Position numbers and translations under genes: made by a program. The notes beneath the pieces were generated by a model. The model saw nothing but the letters and a program-made list of their open reading frames with translations, was not told the DNA's origin and did not search any database. From Chitinophaga filiformis (GTDB lineage: Bacteria; Bacteroidota; Bacteroidia; Chitinophagales; Chitinophagaceae): a stretch of DNA of 64,000 nucleotides. The stretch spans positions 8,101,001-8,165,000 of the forward strand of contig NZ_CP095855.1 in assembly GCF_023100805.1 (NCBI RefSeq). Reading direction: 5' to 3'. Below, piece after piece: positions 45,537 through 56,709 of this stretch (positions within the stretch are counted from its first letter, which is position 1; the number at the start of each line of letters is the position of its first letter).

Positions 45537-47663
45537 TTATTTAAACATCCGCCATTTCAGTCCGGCCATCAATATCCGTCCTGGTTGTCCCGGCATCAGC
45601 ATATCCGTATAATTCATCAGGTTATCCGCTGTTAACTGCACGGATAAATGATCTTTGCAAAATTTCTTTTCGAGCGATGCATATAGCATAGCATACCCTG
45701 CTATGAATGTATCGTACCTGTCCAGGAAACGGTTGTTGTTCGCATCATCATACCCGGCTTTACTCCTGCAGGTAAGGCGGAAGCTGGCGTTGATACCCCA
45801 GGGTGCATACTCATAAAACACCCGCAGGTTGGCCATGTGCCTGGACCTGTTTTCAAGGCCGATGTAATCACTCACTTTCGCGTTACGTGTTTCACCTGTA
45901 TGACTGTTCCTTACCTTATTGTAAGGGTACCCACCCGCCCGGATGGAATCCATTATTCCCCTGTCTTTTGCGTACAGCAGCTGGTAACCTGCGGAGATGT
46001 CCAGTCCTTTTACAGGACTGACAGATACACCAGTTTCTACACCCGAAGTGTAAGACCGGTCAAGATTGATATAGGAATAAACAGGCTGATAATTAGTTCT
46101 TGTTGCTACCTGAACGGTATTAATAAAATTGTGCAGGTTGTTATAGAAAACATTCAGGTCCAGCTTTACAGCAGCATGTGGCTGTACACTGATACCGGCG
46201 TTACAAGACACAGATGTTTCCGGTTTGAGCGCAGCGCTGATATTCCTTGCCACAGGCCGTATTTCGCTGATCAGTCCTGCCGTCTGCATATCTGCCAGGG
46301 TAGCAGCCACCTCCTCGACCCCCAGTACAGTATACCCCGCCTGTGGATTGGTGAATACCTGGTAGCGTTTTTTAAAATCAGGCGTCTTGTAACCTGTCCC
46401 TACGGCTGCCTTAAATATGATCTTGTCGCTTAAACTATAGCTAACACCTACACTGGGATTCAACCTGCCCCCATAGTAATTATGGTGATCATAACGCAGG
46501 CCGGCACGCGTGGTCAGTTTACTGCATATCTTCCAGTCGCCCTGCAGATAAGCATATTCACTACGCATATCATTGCCGCCATGCAGTTCGGTATCGTCCA
46601 TACTTTCGAGATTGATGCCCGCACCTCCGGTAAAGGACAATTTATCCGCAGGAATATATAAGACCTGCTCCTCAAAGCGGTGGAAATATTGTGTAAATTC
46701 ATTTTCCTTCAGTACTGCCTGTTTGCCGGTGCTTACGTCCTGGCGGGAACTGTAACGGGTAAGGTAGTACTGGCTGTTCAGCCGGAACTTATTGTTAAAG
46801 GCAGACTGTAATACAAGAGACGCATTCACATCACTTTCGCTCAATACATCTTTTGTACTGTTTTCCGTTTGTCCTGTGCCATACACCGATTCATTCAGTG
46901 AGTTACGCAAAGCCCATCTGCCGGAGATGAACAACTGCTGACTACTACTGAGGCGATAACGTAAACGTGATTGCAAACTATAGCTGTCGTAAGGCGGAGC
47001 AGTAGCCCCCCTGCGCAAATAGCTGTTCACATTGTATCCATCCGTATGATAATAGTTGCCGGACAATGAAAGGGAGGCCTTCTCTCTGGCAAAAGGCATC
47101 TCTCCTTCCACTGTGGCATCCTGCGTATTTTGAGAACCGTAGCGCACAATAGCCTGTGCCTGCGGTGACGAGATCTTCTGACGGGTGATGATGTTCACCA
47201 CTCCTCCCAGGGCCTCACTTCCAAACAAACTGGAAGAGGCGCCCTTTACGATCTCTATCCGTTCTATGTCTGACACGGTGATACGTGACAGGTCAAAGTT
47301 CCCCGCATTTCTTCCAATCATCGGCTGCCCGTCTATCAGGATCAGGATGTAATCGGAACTGAAGCCCTGCATCTGCATCCCGATAGCGCGTGAACCGGCG
47401 GCAATATCATTGACGATGTTCACACCGGTCTGTTCCCGCATTACTTCATCCAGTCTGCGACTACCCATCATGTCCAGTGTTTTCCTGCTGATGACCGTTA
47501 CCGGCATAGCCGCTTTACTGGTAAGCGTTTCCAGGCGAACGGCCCTCACCTCCACCCCACGCAGGGCTTTCGCCCTGGTGGCAGTATCAGTCTGTGCCGA
47601 TGCCTTATAAGCGCCGGTACACAATAGTATGATAGTGATGCACAGTTCCTTTCCGGTATACAT
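45537..47663 (-). CDS. TonB-dependent receptor, HmuR-like (heme)
   Basis: 708 residues. Signal peptide (to about residue 23), no STN or carboxypeptidase-like domain. Plug at about 40-160 (AMPVTVISRKTLDMMGSRRLDEVMREQTGVNIVND, IEIVKGASSSLFGSEALGGVVNIITRQ), then a 22-strand barrel with GYKTPDFKKRYQVF at the position of the YRAP box of heme receptors. It sits between HmuY-like genes, 33 nt and 8 nt from its neighbours. Import of heme by TonB energy is the likely role; vitamin B12 or another cofactor cannot be excluded by sequence alone. Confidence 0.88.
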   Translation of the reverse strand: MYTGKELCITIILLCTGAYKASAQTDTATRAKALRGVEVRAVRLETLTSKAAMPVTVISRKTLDMMGSRRLDEVMREQTGVNIVNDIAAGSRAIGMQMQGFSSDYILILIDGQPMIGRNAGNFDLSRITVSDIERIEIVKGASSSLFGSEALGGVVNIITRQKISSPQAQAIVRYGSQNTQDATVEGEMPFAREKASLSLSGNYYHTDGYNVNSYLRRGATAPPYDSYSLQSRLRYRLSSSQQLFISGRWALRNSLNESVYGTGQTENSTKDVLSESDVNASLVLQSAFNNKFRLNSQYYLTRYSSRQDVSTGKQAVLKENEFTQYFHRFEEQVLYIPADKLSFTGGAGINLESMDDTELHGGNDMRSEYAYLQGDWKICSKLTTRAGLRYDHHNYYGGRLNPSVGVSYSLSDKIIFKAAVGTGYKTPDFKKRYQVFTNPQAGYTVLGVEEVAATLADMQTAGLISEIRPVARNISAALKPETSVSCNAGISVQPHAAVKLDLNVFYNNLHNFINTVQVATRTNYQPVYSYINLDRSYTSGVETGVSVSPVKGLDISAGYQLLYAKDRGIMDSIRAGGYPYNKVRNSHTGETRNAKVSDYIGLENRSRHMANLRVFYEYAPWGINASFRLTCRSKAGYDDANNNRFLDRYDTFIAGYAMLYASLEKKFCKDHLSVQLTADNLMNYTDMLMPGQPGRILMAGLKWRMFK

Positions 47664-47696
47664 TGGTTAAAATGCTGGTACGAATAAAAGTCTCTT

Positions 47697-48719
47697 CTAG
47701 CTGGCCGATTTCACCAGTTTGTACTCAATAACAGGGTATCCTCTGGTACCACCATCATTCAGGCCCATGCTGACGAATTTCAGCTTGTAATAATTGCCAT
47801 TGGCATCCTTTACGATGTAATAAAAGTTCTTGTAGATGCCGTTACCTGTCGTAGCTCTCCAGCTGCCGCCGATGGCATCGCGGGTAGACACGAAGGTTTG
47901 CGCAGCGATATGGTCTGCTTTGAAATTGTTATAGCTTACGGTATTGCTGTCCACCTTTGCCGCAGTCACACCAACATATTGGTTGATCACTACAAAGTCA
48001 GAAAAGAAATACGGGATGGTAGCTGTGTAATAGGCAGCGTAAGACCAGGCGATATCCCATTGTGTTTTCTTAGGTTCCACATTTACAGTAGCACCATTAT
48101 CCAGGGAGAAGAAGGTAAAGTTGTAGTTATTATCCTTGGCGATATTGGCCGTTTTGATAGTGGTTTCTTTCAGCTTTGCATACTGCAGGGTATAGCCATC
48201 TCCATTGCGTGTAACAAGGATCTTATACCAGGTAGCAGGATCTGCGGCGGAAGCATTTTCCGGTTTCACCAGGTAGACATGATTGGCGGAGGCAGTAGCA
48301 GATACTTCTGCGATCACAGTTTTGGTGAGGTCGCCATATACATCGTCGATCATGCTTAGTGTACCTGCACCCTGACCAATAGCCAGGCTTATACCTGCGG
48401 TATCGCTAATGTTCACAGTATTGATATCGGTCTTGCTCAATGCCACAGCGCTCATGGAAGTAAAGCTATTGAGTACGACACGGTATGAGGACCCGCTATA
48501 AAAACCGAGCGACCAGCTGGCGCGTGCTCTTGTAGCAGTAGAGTCTGAACTGAAATCTACGTAAACGGTATTAGGGGAACCAGTACCACCGCCACCGTTC
48601 AGGGTCAGCTGCGAGCCGTCTGAAGGAGGTATCACCACGGTGGTATCCTCGTCTTTACTACATGCACTGAATAATCCTGTTCCTATAGCAAGTACGAGAA
48701 AAAGTCTGCTTAATTTCAT
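47697..48719 (-). CDS. HmuY-like lipoprotein with two HmuY domains (1st copy)
   Basis: 340 residues from ATG at 48719 (two earlier ATGs at 48725 and 48740 are possible). Lipobox GLFSAC. Unlike the other copies it has two HmuY-type segments. The first (about 40-180) has TVYVDFSSDSTATRARASWSLGFYSG. The second (about 185-335) has FTFFSLDNGATVNVEPKKTQWDIAWSYAAYY, then YIVKDANGNYYKLKFVSMG at the C-terminus. Two domains could bind two hemes or form a built-in dimer. It is 41 nt after the first TonB receptor. Confidence 0.78.
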   Translation of the reverse strand: MKLSRLFLVLAIGTGLFSACSKDEDTTVVIPPSDGSQLTLNGGGGTGSPNTVYVDFSSDSTATRARASWSLGFYSGSSYRVVLNSFTSMSAVALSKTDINTVNISDTAGISLAIGQGAGTLSMIDDVYGDLTKTVIAEVSATASANHVYLVKPENASAADPATWYKILVTRNGDGYTLQYAKLKETTIKTANIAKDNNYNFTFFSLDNGATVNVEPKKTQWDIAWSYAAYYTATIPYFFSDFVVINQYVGVTAAKVDSNTVSYNNFKADHIAAQTFVSTRDAIGGSWRATTGNGIYKNFYYIVKDANGNYYKLKFVSMGLNDGGTRGYPVIEYKLVKSAS

Positions 48720-48759
48720 AGCCATCTTTTGTTTTTGCATTGTATTTATTAATCAATAA

Positions 48760-50835
48760 TTATTTTCTGCTGTTCCAGTTGAAGCTTAATCCGGCGAAGT
48801 AGGAGCGCCCATACCACATCGGCAAAACACCTCCTGCAGTATGTGCCTGCCCGCTGGTCAAAGTAGAATTGCTGATATTCGTATTGTCAAACAGGTTTCT
48901 TACACCTGCATTTATAGTCACATACTTCGTAATACCCTTGCTTACTGTAAAATCCGCCTGGTGAAAAGCCTCCGTTCTCACTTCATGTATGAAGGCAGGT
49001 GCATTGGCAGTTGTCACCTCTTCATACGCCGGGCGTTCTCCATTGAACTTATAAGAGAGATTCAATGCTGTCTCTGTCTTCCTGAAATGATATGTAATGT
49101 TCGCATTCACTTCCGGTGTCCAGGTAAACTCAGGACTCGGATAGCTCTTATTGTACGTATCATCATCGGCAAACTGGTTATACCGACCTATGTAAGCGAT
49201 GCCTGCGTTCACCTGCAGTTCTTTCCAGTTCAGCACTCCGCTCAGCGTGGCTCCGGTGGTTTTAAACCTGCTGATGTTTACATAGGTAGAGGTATCAGTA
49301 CTATTGATCGTTGCAAGATCTATCCTGTCGTGGAAGTCGTTGTAAAACCCGGTTGCCGTTGCATTCAGGCGCACTGGCCCTTTCTGAATAGCCTGCCAGC
49401 TCAGAGACCCGGTGAAACTGTTGGAATATTCCGCTTTCAGGTCCCTGTTCCCTTTTATAGAATGACTGGCATCAAAGAAATAGAAATATAGTTCCCTCAA
49501 TGCCGGCGCCCTGAAGCCACGGGCATAAGACAAACGCAGGTCCAGGTTACTGCGCAGTGCCAGCTTAGTGTTAACAGAAGGGATCAGGGGTGGCGCATCA
49601 TAAACGGAGTTCCTGCTTAACCGTACACCCGGACGTACATTCAGCCAGCGTATTGGTTTGATCTCTGCAGACAGGAAGAGGGAATAATCACTGATCTCCG
49701 GTGTGCCCGATATCCGCTCACCGGAGGAGCCGTCCCTGCGGTATTCAATGCCTGGCTGAAAAGACCATACCGGCGATAATGTATACTGTGCAGTTCCCCT
49801 GAAGAAGATCGTATTGAATTTGGAAACGTCCTGTGCTCCTGCATTGGCCGACAGCATTTCCGTGTTATTGGTAAAATCTTTGATAGTAGTACGTGTCACT
49901 CTTTTGTATTGCTGGTATGAAGCAGCACCATTCACGCTCAGGTCTTTATTCACCTGCCACATTGCCTGTGCCTGGTGCGTATAGCGGTCTGTCAGGTAAT
50001 GCTGGTCTGTAGCCTTGCCATTGTCAAAATTGATATCGCCTCTGCTGATGATATCTTCATCCAGGTAATCGAGCCTGTACCATATTTTCAGATGATCATT
50101 AGTGTAGCCAAATGAGCCATTGGCCATCAGCTGATCCTTTGGTTTCCAGGCCTTCTTCCGGCCTGTGAGCGTATCACTCCATCCGCCAAAATCATTGCGG
50201 GTGATACCTCCTCCGGCAAAGAAACCATTATGCCCCCACTGGAGGCCCAGGTTTTCATTATGCACACCTTTACCACTAAAGGCTGCATACTCTTTCCCCA
50301 CAGTCTCTTCCTGTACCCTGGCTGTTACAGACAACTGCTTACCACCACGATATTTCTTAGTGATAATATTGATAACGCCCGCCAGTGCATCAGTACCATA
50401 TGCAACAGACATGGGCCCTTCTACTATTTCAATCCTTTCTATTGTATTAATATCTATCTGTGTCAGACTTTGCCGGGTGCTGCCCCTGTCAGCCAATGGC
50501 ACACCATCCAGCAAAATCTTTACATTTGTGCCAGACATGCCCATGAGCTCCACATCAGTTTCTCCCAGTGTAGCATCGTTGGAGAAGCGCACGCCCAGTT
50601 CATTATCCAACACGCCCAGCACATTCGTGGCGCCGCGCAATTTTATATACTCACCCGAAATGGTTCTTACCTGGTAAACCGATTGTTTTAATGACTGCGG
50701 AGTATATTGCCCTGTTACCACTACGTCACGCAAACGTACTGAATCAGATATAACGGTAGCCGGTGCGGCAGACTGCGCCCATGCGCCGTTACACAATGCA
50801 ATAGAAAGTCCCAGCACAGTAAGATGTGACCTCAT
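48760..50835 (-). CDS. TonB-dependent heme receptor with FRAP/NxDL motifs
   Basis: 691 residues from ATG at 50835; the open frame goes to 50931 but MRSHLTVLGLSIALCNGAWAQ is a clean signal peptide. Plug: DVVVTGQYTPQSLKQSVYQVRTISGEYIKLRGATNVLGVL, then IEIVEGPMSVAYGTDALAGVINIITKK. The barrel holds GFRAPALRELYFYFFDASHSIKGNRDLKAEYS, which matches the YRAP...NPDL signature of heme/hemoglobin receptors. It is the first gene of the eight-gene surface block and sits behind a promoter that shares an 11-bp word with the hmuT promoter. Confidence 0.88.
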   Translation of the reverse strand: MRSHLTVLGLSIALCNGAWAQSAAPATVISDSVRLRDVVVTGQYTPQSLKQSVYQVRTISGEYIKLRGATNVLGVLDNELGVRFSNDATLGETDVELMGMSGTNVKILLDGVPLADRGSTRQSLTQIDINTIERIEIVEGPMSVAYGTDALAGVINIITKKYRGGKQLSVTARVQEETVGKEYAAFSGKGVHNENLGLQWGHNGFFAGGGITRNDFGGWSDTLTGRKKAWKPKDQLMANGSFGYTNDHLKIWYRLDYLDEDIISRGDINFDNGKATDQHYLTDRYTHQAQAMWQVNKDLSVNGAASYQQYKRVTRTTIKDFTNNTEMLSANAGAQDVSKFNTIFFRGTAQYTLSPVWSFQPGIEYRRDGSSGERISGTPEISDYSLFLSAEIKPIRWLNVRPGVRLSRNSVYDAPPLIPSVNTKLALRSNLDLRLSYARGFRAPALRELYFYFFDASHSIKGNRDLKAEYSNSFTGSLSWQAIQKGPVRLNATATGFYNDFHDRIDLATINSTDTSTYVNISRFKTTGATLSGVLNWKELQVNAGIAYIGRYNQFADDDTYNKSYPSPEFTWTPEVNANITYHFRKTETALNLSYKFNGERPAYEEVTTANAPAFIHEVRTEAFHQADFTVSKGITKYVTINAGVRNLFDNTNISNSTLTSGQAHTAGGVLPMWYGRSYFAGLSFNWNSRK

Positions 50836-51002
50836 AAAGTATAGTAGCATTAACCCCTTAGAGTTGTTAGAACAAAAGATCCCCTGTCGCGATATTGGTA
50901 TAAGACAATACGGCGACCCATGCGGATGCATTAACAGTTTTAAATAAATATGTTATTGTATTACACGAACTACAGCGGAGTTTGTAGCTATTGTATAATA
51001 TT

Positions 51003-51045
51003 GGCGGAGTAATAATACATGCAAAGAAAGCATGTAACGGGTAAA
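51003..51045 (-). promoter_or_regulatory. Promoter and operator-like palindrome of the heme receptor operon
   Basis: On the minus strand: TTCTTTGC (51028-51021) as the -7 box, inside a perfect palindrome TACATGC-N7-GCATGTA (51016-51036). It is followed 7 nt later by ATTACTCCGCC (51013-51003), which also occurs at the hmuT promoter. A TTTAC at 51045-51041 could be part of the -33 region. The leader to ATG 50835 is about 170-180 nt. The palindrome covers the -7 box, as expected for a repressor site. Confidence 0.5.
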
Positions 51046-51089
51046 TAAGTTTATCTATTCAGGAAAATGATTTACGCGAAAAGGAAAAT

Positions 51090-51461: not shown

Positions 51462-51721
51462 CCGGAAATACCTGTTCTGCCTGGGTCTGCAGTCCGTAGT
51501 GCTGACGGGCATTGAGCATTACTTCACAGAAGGTTTTGTAGGATAGCAAATATTTTTTGGGTGCTGACAAACAATGGATGTTCGCAGCATGATATTTCAA
51601 TCACTCTTTACGCAATTCAAAAATAGCGAGTAGTATTAAGGAAGGATGCTCAAATGAGGAAAACGATTTGTCTATTAGGGAAAATATCGGAATGAAATCA
51701 GGGATTAATATGCAAAATCCG

Positions 51722-52145
51722 CGTATCATGTACCCCGGGCATTGCCCAGGGGCTACAAACACGGCGCTCCTAACGGAGCGTTGTGCGAAATTGATGGAGG
51801 TTTGTCTTGATATATATTATGTTCCCGCGCTACGCCCGGGGCTATAAACATGGCGCTCCTAACGGAGCGTTGCGTGAAATTGACGGAGGTTTGTCTTGAT
51901 ATATATTATGTTCCCGCGCTATGCCCGGGGCTATAAACACAACCCTCCTAACGGAGCGTTGTGCGAAATTGATGGAGGTTTGTCTTGATATATATTATGT
52001 TCCTGTGCTATGCCCGGAGATATAAACACGGCGCTCCTAACAGAGCGTTGCGTGACGTGATGAATGTTTGTCCGGGTATACACATTATGTCCCCGGGCCA
52101 CAGCCCCGGGGACATAAAGACGGTGCTCCTGCAGGAGCGTTATGC
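51722..52145 (-). repeat. Tandem array B, five copies, 89-bp period
   Basis: The hairpin word CTCCTAACGGAG (or a variant) recurs at 51767, 51856, 51945, 52034 and 52126, i.e. steps of 89, 89, 89 and 92 nt. On the minus strand each unit reads stem-loop (GCTCC-GTTA-GGAGC in the best copy), then CGTGTTTGTAGCCCC and a second CCCGGG-type hairpin, the same order as arrays A and C on the plus strand. It lies between hmuS (stop at 52171) and the CxxC gene. The region 51601-51721 shows nothing else. Confidence 0.9.
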
Positions 52146-52170
52146 GACATTATTATTTGTTCAACACCTG

Positions 52171-53202
52171 TTACAACGCAGCAGCCAGCGCACGCCATTC
52201 CTGTAGTTCGGGATTACCTGGTTTACGCTTGCCAAAGAACTGTGCGATCATTTCTCCTGCTGCATCAAACACTTCTACTGAGGTAACAATCCCATCAACA
52301 GAAGGTTTTTCTACCACCCAGCTTTGTGCGATCGCATCTGTTCTGAGGTGAAGGTTGAAATCTTCATCCATTACATTGATCCAGCTGGGAATAGCCACGA
52401 TCTTCTGTACAGGGCCTGTATGTATTTCAATGTTACCCGGATTACCTACAAATACCATGATCTCCAGTCCGCTGGCAGCGGCTTTCTCCAACAACGTCTT
52501 TACACAATCATTATCAGTACGGCGCGCGAATTTGCCCGCTGCGAGTTCAAGCGCACGAACCCGGGAGAGTTTATGTTTCATCAACAGCGGGAAGAAATCA
52601 TGCGTATCCTGTAACGCAGCCCATCCCTGAAGGAATGCTTCCGCATCAGCATCTTTATCATTATATACAGGAGCAGGAGGCGGAGCCGCAACGGTAATAG
52701 CAAGGGGTTGTTCTTCGGCAGTGAAATCTGCTACCAGCGCATCCCAGGCAGTCAGATTGGTTTGTTCTACAGCATAGATCTTCATGATGGCGGTGCCTTG
52801 TGCGTCAAATATCTGGATAGATCTTTTGAAGCCTGTGCTATCGTCTGTTTCTACAGCAAATCCGTATTTCCAGCGCGAGAAGAACATACGCAGGTCTATA
52901 TCTTTTCCCAGCACGGTACCCACATGTTTATTCTCAGTGTTCACTATTTCAAAAACACCTTTGCGTTCTATCACACAGTGTTCGTTGCGTGTCAGCACCA
53001 TTACCTTCCCCAGTGCAGGCATGGCCTGTATGAGTGCAGGAAAATCATTCTTCAGATGTTTTACGGTACCACCGGTGCAGGCAGCTACCAGCTCGCCTTC
53101 ACTTACCTGTAACTGGCTGGCAGCGTCACGGATCCTTGTTTTAGGATGTTGTTCACGAAAAGCCAGCCATTGTTCTTTTAACGTTGTCAAAGTTGCGTTC
53201 AT
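52171..53202 (-). CDS. hmuS: Heme-handling factor HemS/HmuS (ChuS family)
   Basis: 343 residues made of two related halves, as in HemS/ShuS/ChuS. N-terminal half: LKEQWLAFREQHPKTRIRDAASQLQVSEGELVAA, then VMVLTRNEHCVIERKGVFE. C-terminal half: FLQGWAALQDTHDFFPLLMKHKLSRVRALELA and FVGNPGNIEIHTGPVQKI. The His in DTHDFF aligns with the heme-ligand histidine of the family. It takes heme from the ABC importer in the cytoplasm and stores or breaks it. It begins 3 nt after the hmuV stop, last in the tight hmuTUVS operon. Confidence 0.92.
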   Translation of the reverse strand: MNATLTTLKEQWLAFREQHPKTRIRDAASQLQVSEGELVAACTGGTVKHLKNDFPALIQAMPALGKVMVLTRNEHCVIERKGVFEIVNTENKHVGTVLGKDIDLRMFFSRWKYGFAVETDDSTGFKRSIQIFDAQGTAIMKIYAVEQTNLTAWDALVADFTAEEQPLAITVAAPPPAPVYNDKDADAEAFLQGWAALQDTHDFFPLLMKHKLSRVRALELAAGKFARRTDNDCVKTLLEKAAASGLEIMVFVGNPGNIEIHTGPVQKIVAIPSWINVMDEDFNLHLRTDAIAQSWVVEKPSVDGIVTSVEVFDAAGEMIAQFFGKRKPGNPELQEWRALAAAL

Positions 53203-53205
53203 GTT

Positions 53206-54054
53206 TTATAATACATTTAATGCCTTTGCGGCAGGTAATTGAAATAAACCACTGGCAGCGGCGGTAACCACCAGCGGATAAAGACAGTGAGGATGTTCCA
53301 GTACGGCGACATCCACACCGAAACAGTTTTTGATATGCGCCGGTGTAAAGATCTCTTCCACAGTTCCCTGTGCATATACACGGCCATCTTTCAGCATCAG
53401 CAGTGTACGGGCATAAGCGGCGGCCAGCTGAAAATCGTGCAGTACAGCTACTACCAGTACACCACTGGCAGCCAGCGTGGAGGCCAGTTGCAATGACAAT
53501 TGCTGGTGTTGTATGTCCATGCCCGTTACCGGTTCATCAAGCAGCAGCATTTTTCTGCCCCTGTAATCTGTAGCCTGCAGATCGGGCGCTTCCAGCAACT
53601 GGGCCAGTACACGCGCCATCTGTACACGTTGCTGCTGCCCTCCCGATAATGTCGGATATGTTCTGTCACGCAGGTGCTGTACCTGCATTACTTTTAAGGC
53701 ATAGTTAATGATCTCTTTGTCTGCAGCAGAAAGATGGGTATTATAGATATAACGGCCCATACTTACAACTTCTGCCACAGTGAATGGCTGATTTAACGTC
53801 AGTTGCTGTGACAACACCGCCCTTGTGCGGGCCTGCATTGCCACCGGCAATGTCTTTAGTTCCTGCCCTCCTATCAGTACACTTCCCTGGTACTGTATGT
53901 ATTCACCAGCTATGACTTTCAGCAAGGTGGATTTTCCGGCGCCATTGGCGCCCATGATCACACACAGCTCACCGGCAGCGGCCTGCAGGTGAATGCCTTC
54001 CAGGATCTTCATTTTACCGAGTGAAAGCGAAACATCTTTTACACACAACATCAT
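53206..54054 (-). CDS. hmuV: Heme ABC transporter ATP-binding protein
   Basis: 282 residues from ATG at 54054, whose codon overlaps the hmuU stop (ATGA), showing translational coupling. The open frame extends to 54165 but lies inside hmuU. Walker A GANGAGKST, signature LSGGQQQR, Walker B MLLLDEPVTGMD and the switch His in AVLHDFQLA are present. A 12-residue insert (LEAPDLQATDYR) before Walker B is a feature of HmuV-type ATPases. It powers import of heme with HmuU and HmuT. Confidence 0.93.
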   Translation of the reverse strand: MMLCVKDVSLSLGKMKILEGIHLQAAAGELCVIMGANGAGKSTLLKVIAGEYIQYQGSVLIGGQELKTLPVAMQARTRAVLSQQLTLNQPFTVAEVVSMGRYIYNTHLSAADKEIINYALKVMQVQHLRDRTYPTLSGGQQQRVQMARVLAQLLEAPDLQATDYRGRKMLLLDEPVTGMDIQHQQLSLQLASTLAASGVLVVAVLHDFQLAAAYARTLLMLKDGRVYAQGTVEEIFTPAHIKNCFGVDVAVLEHPHCLYPLVVTAAASGLFQLPAAKALNVL

Positions 54055-55109
54055 GCCGGTATGGTGCTTTTTTCTTTGATAATAAGCCAGAGGAAAAATG
54101 GTGCGCCTATTACAGCGGTAATAATTCCCACGGGCAATTCCGCAGGCGCTACGATGGTCCTGCATAAGAGGTCTGCCACCGTCAGTAATACTGCGCCGGA
54201 GAGTGCAGCGCCCGGTATGAGTATCCTGTAGTCAGGGCCGGTGAACTGACGTACGATATGTGGCACGATCAGGCCTATAAACCCGATAATGCCTGCTACT
54301 GCTACGCCTGCCGCTACGGCCATCGTTGCAAAGATGACCAGCATCGACTTCAGCCTGGGTACTCTCACGCCGCTATGCATAGCCTCCCTTTCTCCTAATG
54401 CCAGCAGGTTCAATGCAGGCGCCAGGCGGGGCAGCATGATCAGTGGAATGATAATAAAGGGTGCTACGCCTGCTACAGTTTGCCAGCTGGCGCCTCCCAG
54501 GCTACCGAGCGACCAGAATGTAATACTGCGTAGTTGCTCGTTGTTGGCCAGGTAGGTCATCAGCCCGGTAACAGATTCGCATAAGGCCCTTACCGCAATA
54601 CCGGCCAGCAGCATGGTAGAAATAGCTGCTTGCCCGCCGCTGCGGGCAATACGGAAAATAAACAGGGTCGTAATAACTGCTCCTGCAAATGCTGCCAGGT
54701 TCAACGCGTAAAAATTCAATACAGGCGCCTGCTCAAATACAGGTAATGCACTTTGCACAATGATCATTATCACCGCCGCCATAGAAGCGCCGGAACTGAT
54801 ACCTATCAGCCCGGGATCTGCCAGCGGATTGCGGAACAATCCCTGCAGTGAGGCGCCAGCTACGCCAAGTCCTGCACCTATCAGTACGCCCAGCATGACC
54901 CTCGGCAGGCGTATCATCCACAATACGCCGGGCATATTCTCTTCATAGGTAACAGGCAGGTGAAAGCCTGCCTTATCCAGCAGGATGGCAAGTACCTGCA
55001 CCGGAGAGATATGCATCGCGCCTGTACCGGTTGCCAGCAATATCACAATGATGAGCAACACACCCAGGACGCTGATACTGCTGACACGTTTTATATTTGC
55101 TATATTCAT
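54051..55109 (-). CDS. hmuU: Heme ABC transporter permease (FecCD family)
   Basis: 352 residues with about ten membrane helices. Family marks: IRLPRVMLGVLIGAGLGVAGASLQGLFRNPLADPGLIGISSGA, LGSLGGASW and GFIGLIVPHIVRQFTGPDYR. It is the inner-membrane channel for heme. Its ATG overlaps the hmuT stop by 1 nt and its stop overlaps the hmuV start by 4 nt. FecCD proteins also carry siderophores or B12; the hmuS neighbour points to heme. Confidence 0.93.
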   Translation of the reverse strand: MNIANIKRVSSISVLGVLLIIVILLATGTGAMHISPVQVLAILLDKAGFHLPVTYEENMPGVLWMIRLPRVMLGVLIGAGLGVAGASLQGLFRNPLADPGLIGISSGASMAAVIMIIVQSALPVFEQAPVLNFYALNLAAFAGAVITTLFIFRIARSGGQAAISTMLLAGIAVRALCESVTGLMTYLANNEQLRSITFWSLGSLGGASWQTVAGVAPFIIIPLIMLPRLAPALNLLALGEREAMHSGVRVPRLKSMLVIFATMAVAAGVAVAGIIGFIGLIVPHIVRQFTGPDYRILIPGAALSGAVLLTVADLLCRTIVAPAELPVGIITAVIGAPFFLWLIIKEKSTIPA

Positions 55110-55954
55110 TACGAATTCAATTTCCCCGCCAGCTCCTGCACAGCCTGTATCACACGCGGTCCGAAGCCTGTCAGCAGCTGGCCATCCATGACAATTACCT
55201 TTTTTTGTTTGCCTGCTGTTGTCTGTGCAATGCCCTGTACTTTCAGCAGGCCATCCACACCGCCCATGCTTTTTAGTCCGTCATCAAACATCAGGATCAC
55301 ATCAGGATTGGCAGTCACCAATGCTTCAGGCGTCAATGGCTTGAAATCATTGAACCCGGTAGCCGCGTTCTGTGCACCGGCAAGCGCAATGATCTTGTCG
55401 AGGGGAGTTTCTTTGCCTGCCACCATCATAGTGCCGGCGCCGCGGGCATAAATGAATAATACTTTTTTCGGCTGTGGTTTTATCTGTAACGCCTGCTGCT
55501 CCCTATCCAGCTGTTTTACCAATGCAGCGCCTTTCTCCGGCACTTTCAGGGCAGCGGCTACTTCTGTGATCAGTTTTTTTGTTCCTGCTACGGAGAATTC
55601 CTGTTTCATCAATACCGTTCTTACACCCACATTTTTAAACTGTTCGATCACAGCCGGCTGAATAAAATTGTCAGTGGCCAGGATCAGGTCAGGCTGCAAC
55701 GCCAGTACCGGCTCCGCAGAAATGTTCCTGTTATGTCCCACTTTCGCTACCTGCTTCATACTGGCAGGATACGTGCTGGTTACATCCACACCTACCAGGG
55801 CGTTCTCAAATCCAAGTGCACATACAATCTCAGTAACAGCACCGTTCAGGGACACTATACGCTTAATACCCTGTTGCGCGCTAACATTCATCGCTGCCAG
55901 CAAGCAGACAGCCAATGACACGATCAATGATCGTATCCTTATATGATTCATCAT
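55109..55954 (-). CDS. hmuT: Heme ABC transporter periplasmic binding protein
   Basis: 281 residues from ATG at 55954 (MMNHIRIRSLIVSLAVCLLAAMNVSAQQ, a cleavable signal peptide). A class III binding protein: RIVSLNGAVTEIVCALGFENALVGVDVTSTYPASMKQVAKVG, a rigid linker helix and LTPEALVTANPDVILMFDDGL. The tyrosine of TSTYP matches the heme-ligand Tyr of ShuT/PhuT. It should carry heme from the outer-membrane receptors to HmuUV. First gene of the operon, with a long structured leader (55955-56272). Confidence 0.92.
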   Translation of the reverse strand: MMNHIRIRSLIVSLAVCLLAAMNVSAQQGIKRIVSLNGAVTEIVCALGFENALVGVDVTSTYPASMKQVAKVGHNRNISAEPVLALQPDLILATDNFIQPAVIEQFKNVGVRTVLMKQEFSVAGTKKLITEVAAALKVPEKGAALVKQLDREQQALQIKPQPKKVLFIYARGAGTMMVAGKETPLDKIIALAGAQNAATGFNDFKPLTPEALVTANPDVILMFDDGLKSMGGVDGLLKVQGIAQTTAGKQKKVIVMDGQLLTGFGPRVIQAVQELAGKLNS

Positions 55955-56272
55955 AATCTGATTAAAGTAAGAATGACAATAAATAATGTTGAAAAGAAGA
56001 AATGAATGGTTGACCCTACCCGGGGTTTGGGCCAACCATCGCTTACCGTAAGCATTTTACTCCGCCATGCTCAGGCAAGAACTTTAAAATAAGTTATCGC
56101 ATACAGGATACCGGGAAGTCAGGTATTGGCACGAAAGGCCACTACGGAACTTCACAGTTGTCCGGTACAGTTTTACCAGTAATTAAAATTTAAAGTGTAG
56201 CTATCAGCCGAGAATGATATATAGGGATATATCAGAAATGGACTGACAGGTGCGGCGGAGTAATTGAGTGAT
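55955..56272 (-). ncRNA. Long structured leader of the hmuTUVS operon, candidate regulatory RNA
   Basis: About 310 nt from the promoter to the hmuT ATG with no ORF. TTACTCCGCC (56263-56254) and GGCGGAGTAA (56066-56057) on the minus strand are exact complements over 10 bp and would close a domain of 187 nt. Inside are hairpins CTGGTA/TACCGG, CGGAcaACT/AGTTCCG, TGGC/GCCA and ATACC/GGTAT. Downstream lie GCTTAC/GTAAGC (56041-56053) and a strong hairpin with ATGGTTG/CAACCAT arms plus paired C- and G-triplets (56006-56039), 52 nt before the start codon. It does not match a riboswitch class that I can name. Confidence 0.5.
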
Positions 56273-56301
56273 GCAAATCTATGTCATAGAAATGTAACAA
56301 A
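56254..56301 (-). promoter_or_regulatory. hmuT promoter with the shared ATTACTCCGCC word
   Basis: On the minus strand: TTTG (56301-56298) as -33, TAGATTTG (56281-56274) as -7, 16 nt apart, then ATTACTCCGCC (56264-56254) starting 8 nt after TTTGC. GTTACAT (56298-56292) is also shared with the receptor promoter. CTATG-A-CATAG overlaps the -7 box. Confidence 0.55.
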
Positions 56302-56457
56302 CTAATCGGATCGGGAAATTTTTATGACAATCTTTACGCAAAAGGAAATATTTACGTCTTTCAATATTTCATGGGGGAAGTTCAGGATGGGGTTAAACTA
56401 AATGCTTTCTGCTATTGTTAAATATACATTACCTATCACCGGAAAAACTTTAAACCC

Positions 56458-56709
56458 ATGGATTGGGATGAAATACTGAATCCACTATCGCCATACTATC
56501 AGAGTGCGATGCAGGAACAACAGCAACTTGTGAATCTGCAGGATGGACTTATATCAGCCGCCAGAGAACTGATGTCATCCGTTTACCCGCAGATCTATCA
56601 CCTTGAATCGGCCGGATACACAGAACTTGAAAACACCATTATTTCGGAATGTGTGAAACTGTCGTGTAAACTGAACGATATTATACTGAAGTACCAGATA
56701 GAAAAATAG
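56458..56709 (+). CDS. Small hypothetical protein
   Basis: 83 residues, MDWDEILNPLSPYYQSAMQEQ at the start. Mostly helical and acidic, with no signal peptide or membrane segment (SAARELMSSVYPQIYHLESAGYTELENTIISECVKLSCKLNDII). Two cysteines near the C-terminus. Not recognised as a known family. The frame has normal codon use for the window, and its stop lies 11 nt from the stop of the convergent DUF4249 gene. Upstream, 56302-56457 may hold its promoter. Confidence 0.6.
   Translation: MDWDEILNPLSPYYQSAMQEQQQLVNLQDGLISAARELMSSVYPQIYHLESAGYTELENTIISECVKLSCKLNDIILKYQIEK

Follow-up and report, generated by a model that had tools for sequence, protein, structure and literature searches.

The window analysed here is a 64,000-nt stretch of the Chitinophaga filiformis genome (contig NZ_CP095855.1, forward-strand positions 8,101,001 to 8,165,000). 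On its minus strand lies a putative heme importer operon, preceded by a leader that runs from 56272 to 55955. A role of the hmuT product in heme uptake is presumed from the operon context. The operon, its promoter, and the elements of the leader RNA are, in window positions:

52171 to 55109, minus strand: hmuU (FecCD), hmuV (heme ABC ATPase) and a gene for a HemS/ChuX protein, 3′ of hmuT
55109 to 55954, minus strand: hmuT, periplasmic binding protein (Pfam Peripla_BP_2), with its ATG at 55954/55951 and its end at 55109
55990 to 56272, minus strand: the whole RNA, about 280 nt, from its promoter-proximal end to the U-rich tail after the terminator (BLAST and covariance model; both ends predicted)
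55990 to 56005, minus strand: U-rich terminator tail, interrupted, with 8 T in the first 12 (alignment)
56006 to 56039, minus strand: terminator-like hairpin, 11-12 pairs with a 12-nt loop (fold and alignment)
56042 to 56079, minus strand: hairpin P2, 12 pairs with one bulge and a 13-nt loop, the putative antisense element
56057 to 56066, minus strand: loop of P2, with strand a′ (GGCGGAGUAA; GGCGGAGTAA), the complement of the 5′ tags; GGCGGA in 34/34 aligned rows, GGCGGAGTA in 32/34
56201 to 56249, minus strand: first inner hairpin, H1 (folds)
56254 to 56263, minus strand: 5′ tag, strand a (UUACUCCGCC) of the hmuT transcript, TTACTCCGCC in the leader; ACTCCG[CT] in 32/32 hmuT-linked leaders
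56274 to 56281, minus strand: TAGATTTG, a −7-like promoter element (by sequence)
56311 to 56339, minus strand: upstream box GCGTAAA...TTTCCCG of the hmuT promoter

The leader locus is single-copy in the 8.26-Mb genome, for which reason a transposon or repeat origin was rejected. Transcription of the hmuT leader is expected to start at about 56268-56273. The element TAGATTTG, which we take to match the Bacteroidetes-type −7 consensus, is absent from the output of a sigma-70 promoter scan, which looks for the sigma-70 consensus and is not built for the Bacteroidetes −7 motif; elements resembling it are found in most of the hmuT leaders listed. The GCGTAAA...TTTCCCG box, which precedes hmuT and receptor leaders in many Chitinophaga genomes, is a probable regulator site.

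Boxes of the form GCGTAAAT..TTTTCC, or close variants of it, stand upstream of heme promoters in the genus (in the window at 51061-51077, 56311-56339 and about 51610-51630, minus strand), and may be sites for a heme or iron regulator; GCGTAAA is also found upstream of a DUF6686 gene. By eye, the region that separates hemS from the DUF6686 gene (51740-52160, minus strand) contains a unit of about 110-120 nt repeated several times with small changes; every copy has AACGCTCC(G)TTAGGAG together with a stem resembling GCCCCGGGC.

The minus-strand leader is predicted to fold at −98.4 kcal/mol (z −4.47, with 0 of 100 shuffles as good); the plus strand of the same region gives z −3.65. The first-pass annotation of this DNA had described two exactly complementary words 187 nt apart, with short hairpins between them and a strong stem close to the start codon. 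The positions and the spacing are correct, on the minus strand, and the MFE structure does contain a 10-bp helix (the closing helix, P1) and, besides several hairpins inside it, one of 12 pairs whose end is 51 nt upstream of the ATG. Three features go beyond that description: the 3′ strand of P1 is at the same time the loop of a second, covarying hairpin (P2); the last hairpin is terminator-like; and the same word occurs again at 51003-51012, in a receptor leader.

By BLAST, the leader region is found in 32 of 79 Chitinophaga genomes. A covariance model (R1, representing the 3′ part of the RNA and built on an imperfect alignment) gives 34 of 79 at E<=1e-12, with one such locus each; weaker matches add three genomes and two second hits. 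With hmuT found in 35 of these genomes (E<=1e-60) and hemS in 34 (E<=1e-30), the RNA and both genes occur together in 32; the genomes are related, and such counts are hence not independent. Two genomes (G033 and G061) have hmuT and hemS and no RNA, with a short leader behind a similar promoter; in G009, hmuT is 49% identical and its upstream sequence is different. The leader loci were sorted into clades by eye: clade 1 (L009-L020, including the window), 2a (L021-L024, L027), 2b (L025, L026, L028, L029), 3 (L030-L032, L036), 4 (L033-L035), and 5 (L037, L038, L080, L081). At two loci of the genus a gene is split into two pieces: hemS (G082:C1:5204565-5205580) and TBDR2, the latter with a TAG stop (G076:C7:152242-154361).

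Among 394 genomes of the family (10 candidates per genome scored) there were 10 covariance matches, of which the only four strong ones were all in the same genus. A general occurrence in the family was therefore rejected; of the six non-genus matches five were inspected, two of them looking like terminator hairpins (L069, L072) and three like chance matches (L070, L071, L073). At the 24 other-genus hmuT loci listed no such leader was seen; hmuT there directly follows other genes, in several cases an HmuY-like one (by eye). Of the 30 stretches retrieved from named genomes by a pattern scan, 11 are unrelated and 19 represent this RNA: 17 are in Chitinophaga records (among them filiformis, pinensis, ginsengisoli and arvensicola), one is in a MAG labelled Flavihumibacter, and one is in ‘[Flexibacter]’.

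One layout is common to the hmuT-linked leaders: a promoter-like element and word a are followed by sequence that varies, then by P2, which has the complementary word in its loop, and then by a third hairpin and its T-rich tail. The loop word stands 93-123 nt from the ATG (30 loci measured). Words a and a′ match over 9-13 contiguous pairs, 151-281 nt apart, in all 32 leaders with hmuT. The two words are thus conserved together, as the first-pass annotation had required, wherever hmuT follows, but not in two genomes that have lost it (G064 and G090, below). Covariation in the closing helix, which had been proposed as support, is weak: the 7-bp core of P1 shows no variation beyond a single C to T change that leaves a wobble pair, and can therefore neither support nor contradict pairing, leaving one double change at the edge (U-A to C-G in L036) in its favor.

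P2 covaries. Of the 34 rows, 30 allow all 12 pairs; three allow 11, and L076 allows 10. There are 13 branches with pairing-keeping double changes, against a mean of 0.5 and a maximum of 4 in 200 nulls, a count that is inflated by placement of the bulge to favor pairing; pairs 3 to 7 depend on this placement, and L033 and L034 are one register off in the alignment. Outside this stretch, pairs 1 and 9 show one double change each. In the terminator-like hairpin (11 pairs, 10 in three rows, with 5-9 T among the 12 nt of its tail), pairing-keeping double changes are found on three branches (null maximum 1) and involve 3 of the 11 pairs; with so few, its assignment as a putative terminator leans mainly on hairpin form. 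Its mean pair probability is at least 0.89 in 32/32 leaders; folds from which it is barred are about 19-25 kcal/mol less stable, and no built-in antiterminator is thus visible. A simple terminator scan found none in the leader, against 1.4 expected, because the loop exceeds its 3-8 nt rule and the T-run is interrupted. By eye, the hairpin resembles T-run hairpins elsewhere that were also caught by the covariance model (L069, L072, L082, L083, L085). As far as can be read from sequence, an intrinsic terminator lies between the promoter and the first gene, and the RNA has both a promoter and a terminator of its own.

The terminator loop (56017-56028) and its relatives contain palindromes that differ between clades (CCCGGG, TCGCGA, TCTAGA) and might reflect dimers formed loop to loop. 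We also considered, and dropped, a short reading frame within the P2 loop (ATG GCG GAG TAA), because its start is lost in L036 (ACG) and its stop in G064 and G090. Kissing between the P2 loop and H1 within one RNA is not general: UCCGC is seen in the H1 loop of most clade 2 and clade 4 leaders and of some from clade 3, but not in clade 5 or the window's own clade (by eye).

The loop strand is common to P1 and P2, and full coexistence of the two is unlikely: all 13 nt of the loop are taken up by P1 in L030-L032, and in L033-L035 P1 extends into the arm of P2. In monomer folds P1 has a probability of 0.61-1.00 and P2 of at most 0.11: the P2 loop is conserved, yet predicted to be mostly held by strand a.

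The word complementary to this loop recurs upstream of a receptor operon elsewhere in the window:

45537 to 50931, minus strand: receptor operon, consisting of TBDR1 (48760-50931), HmuY (47697-48740) and TBDR2 (45537-47663)
50968 to 50989, minus strand: receptor-leader hairpin with AACUCCGC in its loop, a possible kissing partner of P2
51003 to 51012, minus strand: 5′ tag UUACUCCGCC at the start of the receptor mRNA, just after the TBDR1 promoter; 11 contiguous pairs with the P2 loop
51061 to 51077, minus strand: box GCGTAAATCATTTTCCT of the receptor promoter (sequence and pattern)

HmuY in this operon is named by Pfam; HmuY-like genes in other genomes were judged by eye. A CUCCGC(C) tag stands just after a heme-receptor promoter in all 32 of the RNA-bearing genomes (31 by a loose context rule, and separately G098, where it stands before TBDR2). 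The stretch downstream of hemS was fetched from 33 genomes. When all 4,096 hexamers were scored in a strict post-promoter context, defined without the word, the tag was found in 28 of 32 RNA genomes and CTCCGC ranked first; of 29 permutations of it, only the overlapping shift TCCGCC (25) exceeds 1. Sites complementary to the P2 loop are, then, conserved on putative target mRNAs, and both the tag and its complementarity to the loop can be read directly from the genomes.

The genes behind the tag differ between clades. In clades 1 and 2 it precedes TBDR1; in L030-L032, a DUF6686-TBDR1-lipoprotein operon; in clade 4, TBDR2-HmuY-like; and in clade 5, lipoprotein-HmuY-like-lipoprotein-TBDR2. Additional TBDR2 operons are tagged too. 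At one locus (L150 of G066) a TBDR1-type leader has been kept, no TBDR1 gene was found, and the leader now precedes HmuY-like and TBDR2 genes. Another TBDR2-HmuY-like operon, off the hmu contig (L204, on contig C73 of G015), starts with box and tag.

Genomes without the RNA lack the tag in this context. In G033 and G061, CTCCGC was not found in the post-promoter context after hemS, and the hexamer occurs elsewhere in their stretches. Both have GCGTAAA followed by ACTCCGCC within the first codons of a gene for a PepSY-like membrane protein (L199 and L200, by eye); this match was rejected as a tag since it is inside a coding region. In receptor leaders of RNA-less genomes, none of 21 has the tag in context; nine hold CTCCGC within about 1 kb, none of them after a promoter-like element, and in some of the 21 the true promoter may be further upstream. 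The tag is missing from the TBDR2 homologs that G067, G010 and G095 carry at other loci. Genus-wide, box-plus-word matches average 2.9 in 34 RNA genomes and 1.3 in 45 others, with reversed-pattern controls at 1.3 and 1.2, respectively. The 11-mer WTTACTCCGCC occurs seven times in the C. filiformis genome, three of them at the heme locus; a regulon beyond heme was not supported by the other four, none of which has the promoter box ahead of it: three overlap or adjoin coding sequence, and one belongs to a terminator-like stem.

Contiguous matches between the P2 loop and its targets are 8 to 14 nt long, as compared with 9 to 13 in cis. In clade 2a, the trans match to the TBDR1 leader is 14 in 5/5, with only 9 in cis in G080 and G031; the order is reversed in G024, G068 and G091, with 13 in cis and 8 in trans (11 for the second G068 leader). 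A further G068 match, CCTCCGCAACATC (6 pairs), looks spurious and was left out of the targets. Of 43 loop-leader duplexes, 36 are predicted to be more stable than all 200 mononucleotide shuffles; the tag is mostly unpaired in its own leader (0.45-0.98), and of 20 leaders tested as dimers, 9 have an MFE structure in which the P2 loop is paired to the target. The best case of a co-change in trans comes from G008, where the loop's UAA to UAG change meets CUG in place of UUA (loop CGGCGGAGUAG, receptor leader CUGCUCCGCCG), a hint of compensation. Candidate seed-target co-changes are seen at edge positions only, in G008 and clade 4; because the pairing core never varies, covariation in trans rests on these positions in few lineages.

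Two genomes, G064 and G090, have kept the RNA and lost hmuTUV and hemS (neither hmuT nor hemS reaching the E<=1e-60 and E<=1e-30 cut-offs). Here it lies between a DUF4249-type gene (by eye) and a DUF6686-like gene (L075, L076). Between the two genomes, promoter, P2 and terminator are better conserved than about 100 nt just outside; further downstream, before the next gene, conservation is high again. P2 and the terminator show one paired change each, and P2 of G090 has two mismatches. The loop is GGCGGAAAAA; the RNA's own tag matches it poorly, and cis pairing is broken. No TBDR2 was found in either genome at E<=1e-150, and TTCCGCC, looked for as a possible new target, occurs at 13 places, none with a full promoter box (by eye). 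From its conserved parts and paired changes, the RNA seems to matter without hmuT in cis. Its retention supports a role beyond hmuT, albeit in genomes where no matching tagged promoter was found.

These observations suggest that the hmuT leader is the source of a regulatory sRNA of about 280 nt, the P2 loop of which would pair with the 5′ tags of receptor mRNAs in trans and with its own tag in cis; we consider this moderately probable. We infer that the RNA is transcribed in the cell from the heme-regulon promoter, ends mostly at its own terminator, and pairs in trans. Expression of hmuTUV would then need read-through, because the sole promoter-like match between the hairpin and the ATG (to the sigma-70 consensus) overlaps the start codon. 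P2 would present GGCGGAGUAA in its loop for pairing with (U)UUACUCCGCC at the extreme 5′ end of outer-membrane heme-receptor mRNAs, and also with the loop-displayed CUCCG of TBDR1-type leaders; cis pairing with its own 5′ tag, in the closing helix, probably hides the loop until a target mRNA competes. In this way the RNA would couple importer and receptor output; it might stabilize, silence or titrate the receptor mRNAs, and so raise or lower receptor expression. Pairing at the extreme 5′ end could protect the mRNA from decay or alter early elongation (both guesses). The wider form of this proposal, an RNA regulon with a shared 5′ barcode in which one importer-leader loop reads the tag on all heme-uptake units, in trans and on itself, is put forward more tentatively, as something just short of probable on the sequences at hand.

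The main rival is a protein that reads the tag. A protein-binding leader was among the possibilities raised in the first-pass annotation, whose broader claim of a structured regulatory leader is supported. On this account ACTCCGCC would be the site of a DNA repressor just past the transcription start, or of an RNA-binding protein at the 5′ end, and the P2 loop would compete for it in cis only. The tag's distance from the promoter is much the same in hmuT leaders as in receptor leaders, its core hardly varies, P1 is favored over P2 by probability in 32/32 folds, and TBDR1-type leaders hold two copies of the tag 30-39 nt apart, all of which would suit a protein. The second of these copies is instructive, however. 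In 20/20 TBDR1-type leaders examined (clades 1 and 2) it is a CUCCG in the loop of a hairpin whose stem varies (CUACA/UGUAG, CUGUA/UGCAG, CUGC/GCAG, CUGUU/AACAG) with pairing kept, and its spacing from the first is variable, which points to recognition as RNA rather than DNA. Further arguments against a protein are that ACTCCGCC is not palindromic, and that the trans match extends past the shared core, reaching the 14 pairs of clade 2a. An RNA-binding protein could still read the tag. We regard this explanation as unlikely, though deserving the most serious consideration of the three alternatives.

As a second alternative, the leader might be a purely cis-acting attenuator, in which mutually exclusive P1 and P2, with or without a ligand, set read-through into hmuT. 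The shared loop strand of P1 and P2 described above speaks for such a device, a terminator-like hairpin lies between the RNA and hmuT in 32/32, and several leaders (e.g., L021, L024, L027, L030, L036, L038, L081) form P2 at a cost of no more than about 4 kcal/mol relative to P1. But P1 and P2, while competing, do not touch the terminator; because neither overlaps it, the choice between them has no evident route to a change in termination. Nor does an attenuator explain the tag on receptor leaders, which stands there without a cis partner (no GCGGAG or GGCGGA within 400 nt in 19 of 20 TBDR1-type leaders), or an RNA kept after hmuT was lost. It is accordingly less likely than a protein that reads the tag.

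The weakest alternative is the new heme or iron riboswitch proposed in the first-pass annotation: it would account for a structured heme-operon leader with a terminator-like hairpin, and, as had been said there, no known class fits (no Rfam match at gathering threshold in the window, and none at E<=10 in 55900-56500), but the region between the two words, where a conserved ligand-binding domain would be expected, has the lowest conservation of the leader and varies from clade to clade, no antiterminator was seen, strong matches are confined to one genus (4 of the 10 in 394 family genomes), and the conserved word recurs on other mRNAs, with its partner on receptor mRNAs outside the leader, for which reasons this reading is unsupported and very improbable.

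A leader-derived sRNA with an antisense loop has parallels in several known systems. Plasmid antisense RNAs such as RNAI/RNAII and CopA/CopT recognize their targets loop to loop, and are encoded opposite them; the two-hairpin recognition proposed here is alike, but the Chitinophaga partners are separate transcription units. We know of no tag on partner mRNAs for UpsM of Rhodobacter. UpsM resembles the Chitinophaga RNA in being an sRNA within a long operon leader (that of the dcw cluster), in a different organism and with different genes, by the part of the source available (PMC5089854). Rli51 of Listeria, from the 5′ UTR of mpl, is likewise a trans-acting leader RNA produced by premature termination, with partly iron- and heme-related genes involved; it belongs to another phylum, has 121 nt, and is predicted to have a terminator/antiterminator fold, according to the accessible portion of its description (PMC11394854). 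The Chitinophaga RNA differs from it in having no visible antiterminator, and in an antisense loop that matches a shared 5′ tag. To judge from these partial accounts, precedents for leader RNAs acting as sRNAs exist. Within the same phylum, GibS of Bacteroides thetaiotaomicron is a base-pairing sRNA described, in the available part of the report, as using a single-stranded 5′ seed on translation start regions (PMC7366714), in contrast to the hairpin loop and 5′ ends proposed here. Rfp18 of Flavobacterium is a structured sRNA of the phylum, one stem-loop of which is predicted to pair with several mRNAs; it differs in being an independent transcript with protease targets, again from a source available in part (PMC9723704).

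Among the listed matches of literature searches on heme riboswitches, Bacteroidetes heme-uptake RNAs, Chitinophaga sRNAs and hmuY sRNAs (titles and abstract openings), the RNA is not described. For named Chitinophaga species, the sequence predicts which RNA is the regulator, which part of it is the seed, which mRNAs are the targets, and at exactly which positions they would pair. If the leader-derived sRNA proposed here is real, it would mean that the leader of a nutrient importer can set receptor levels, and that a 5′-terminal tag can mark different mRNAs for one RNA. To our knowledge, few base-pairing sRNAs have been found in the Bacteroidetes, and the phylum lacks Hfq; in such a setting an sRNA derived from a leader would coordinate the outer- and inner-membrane systems of heme uptake.
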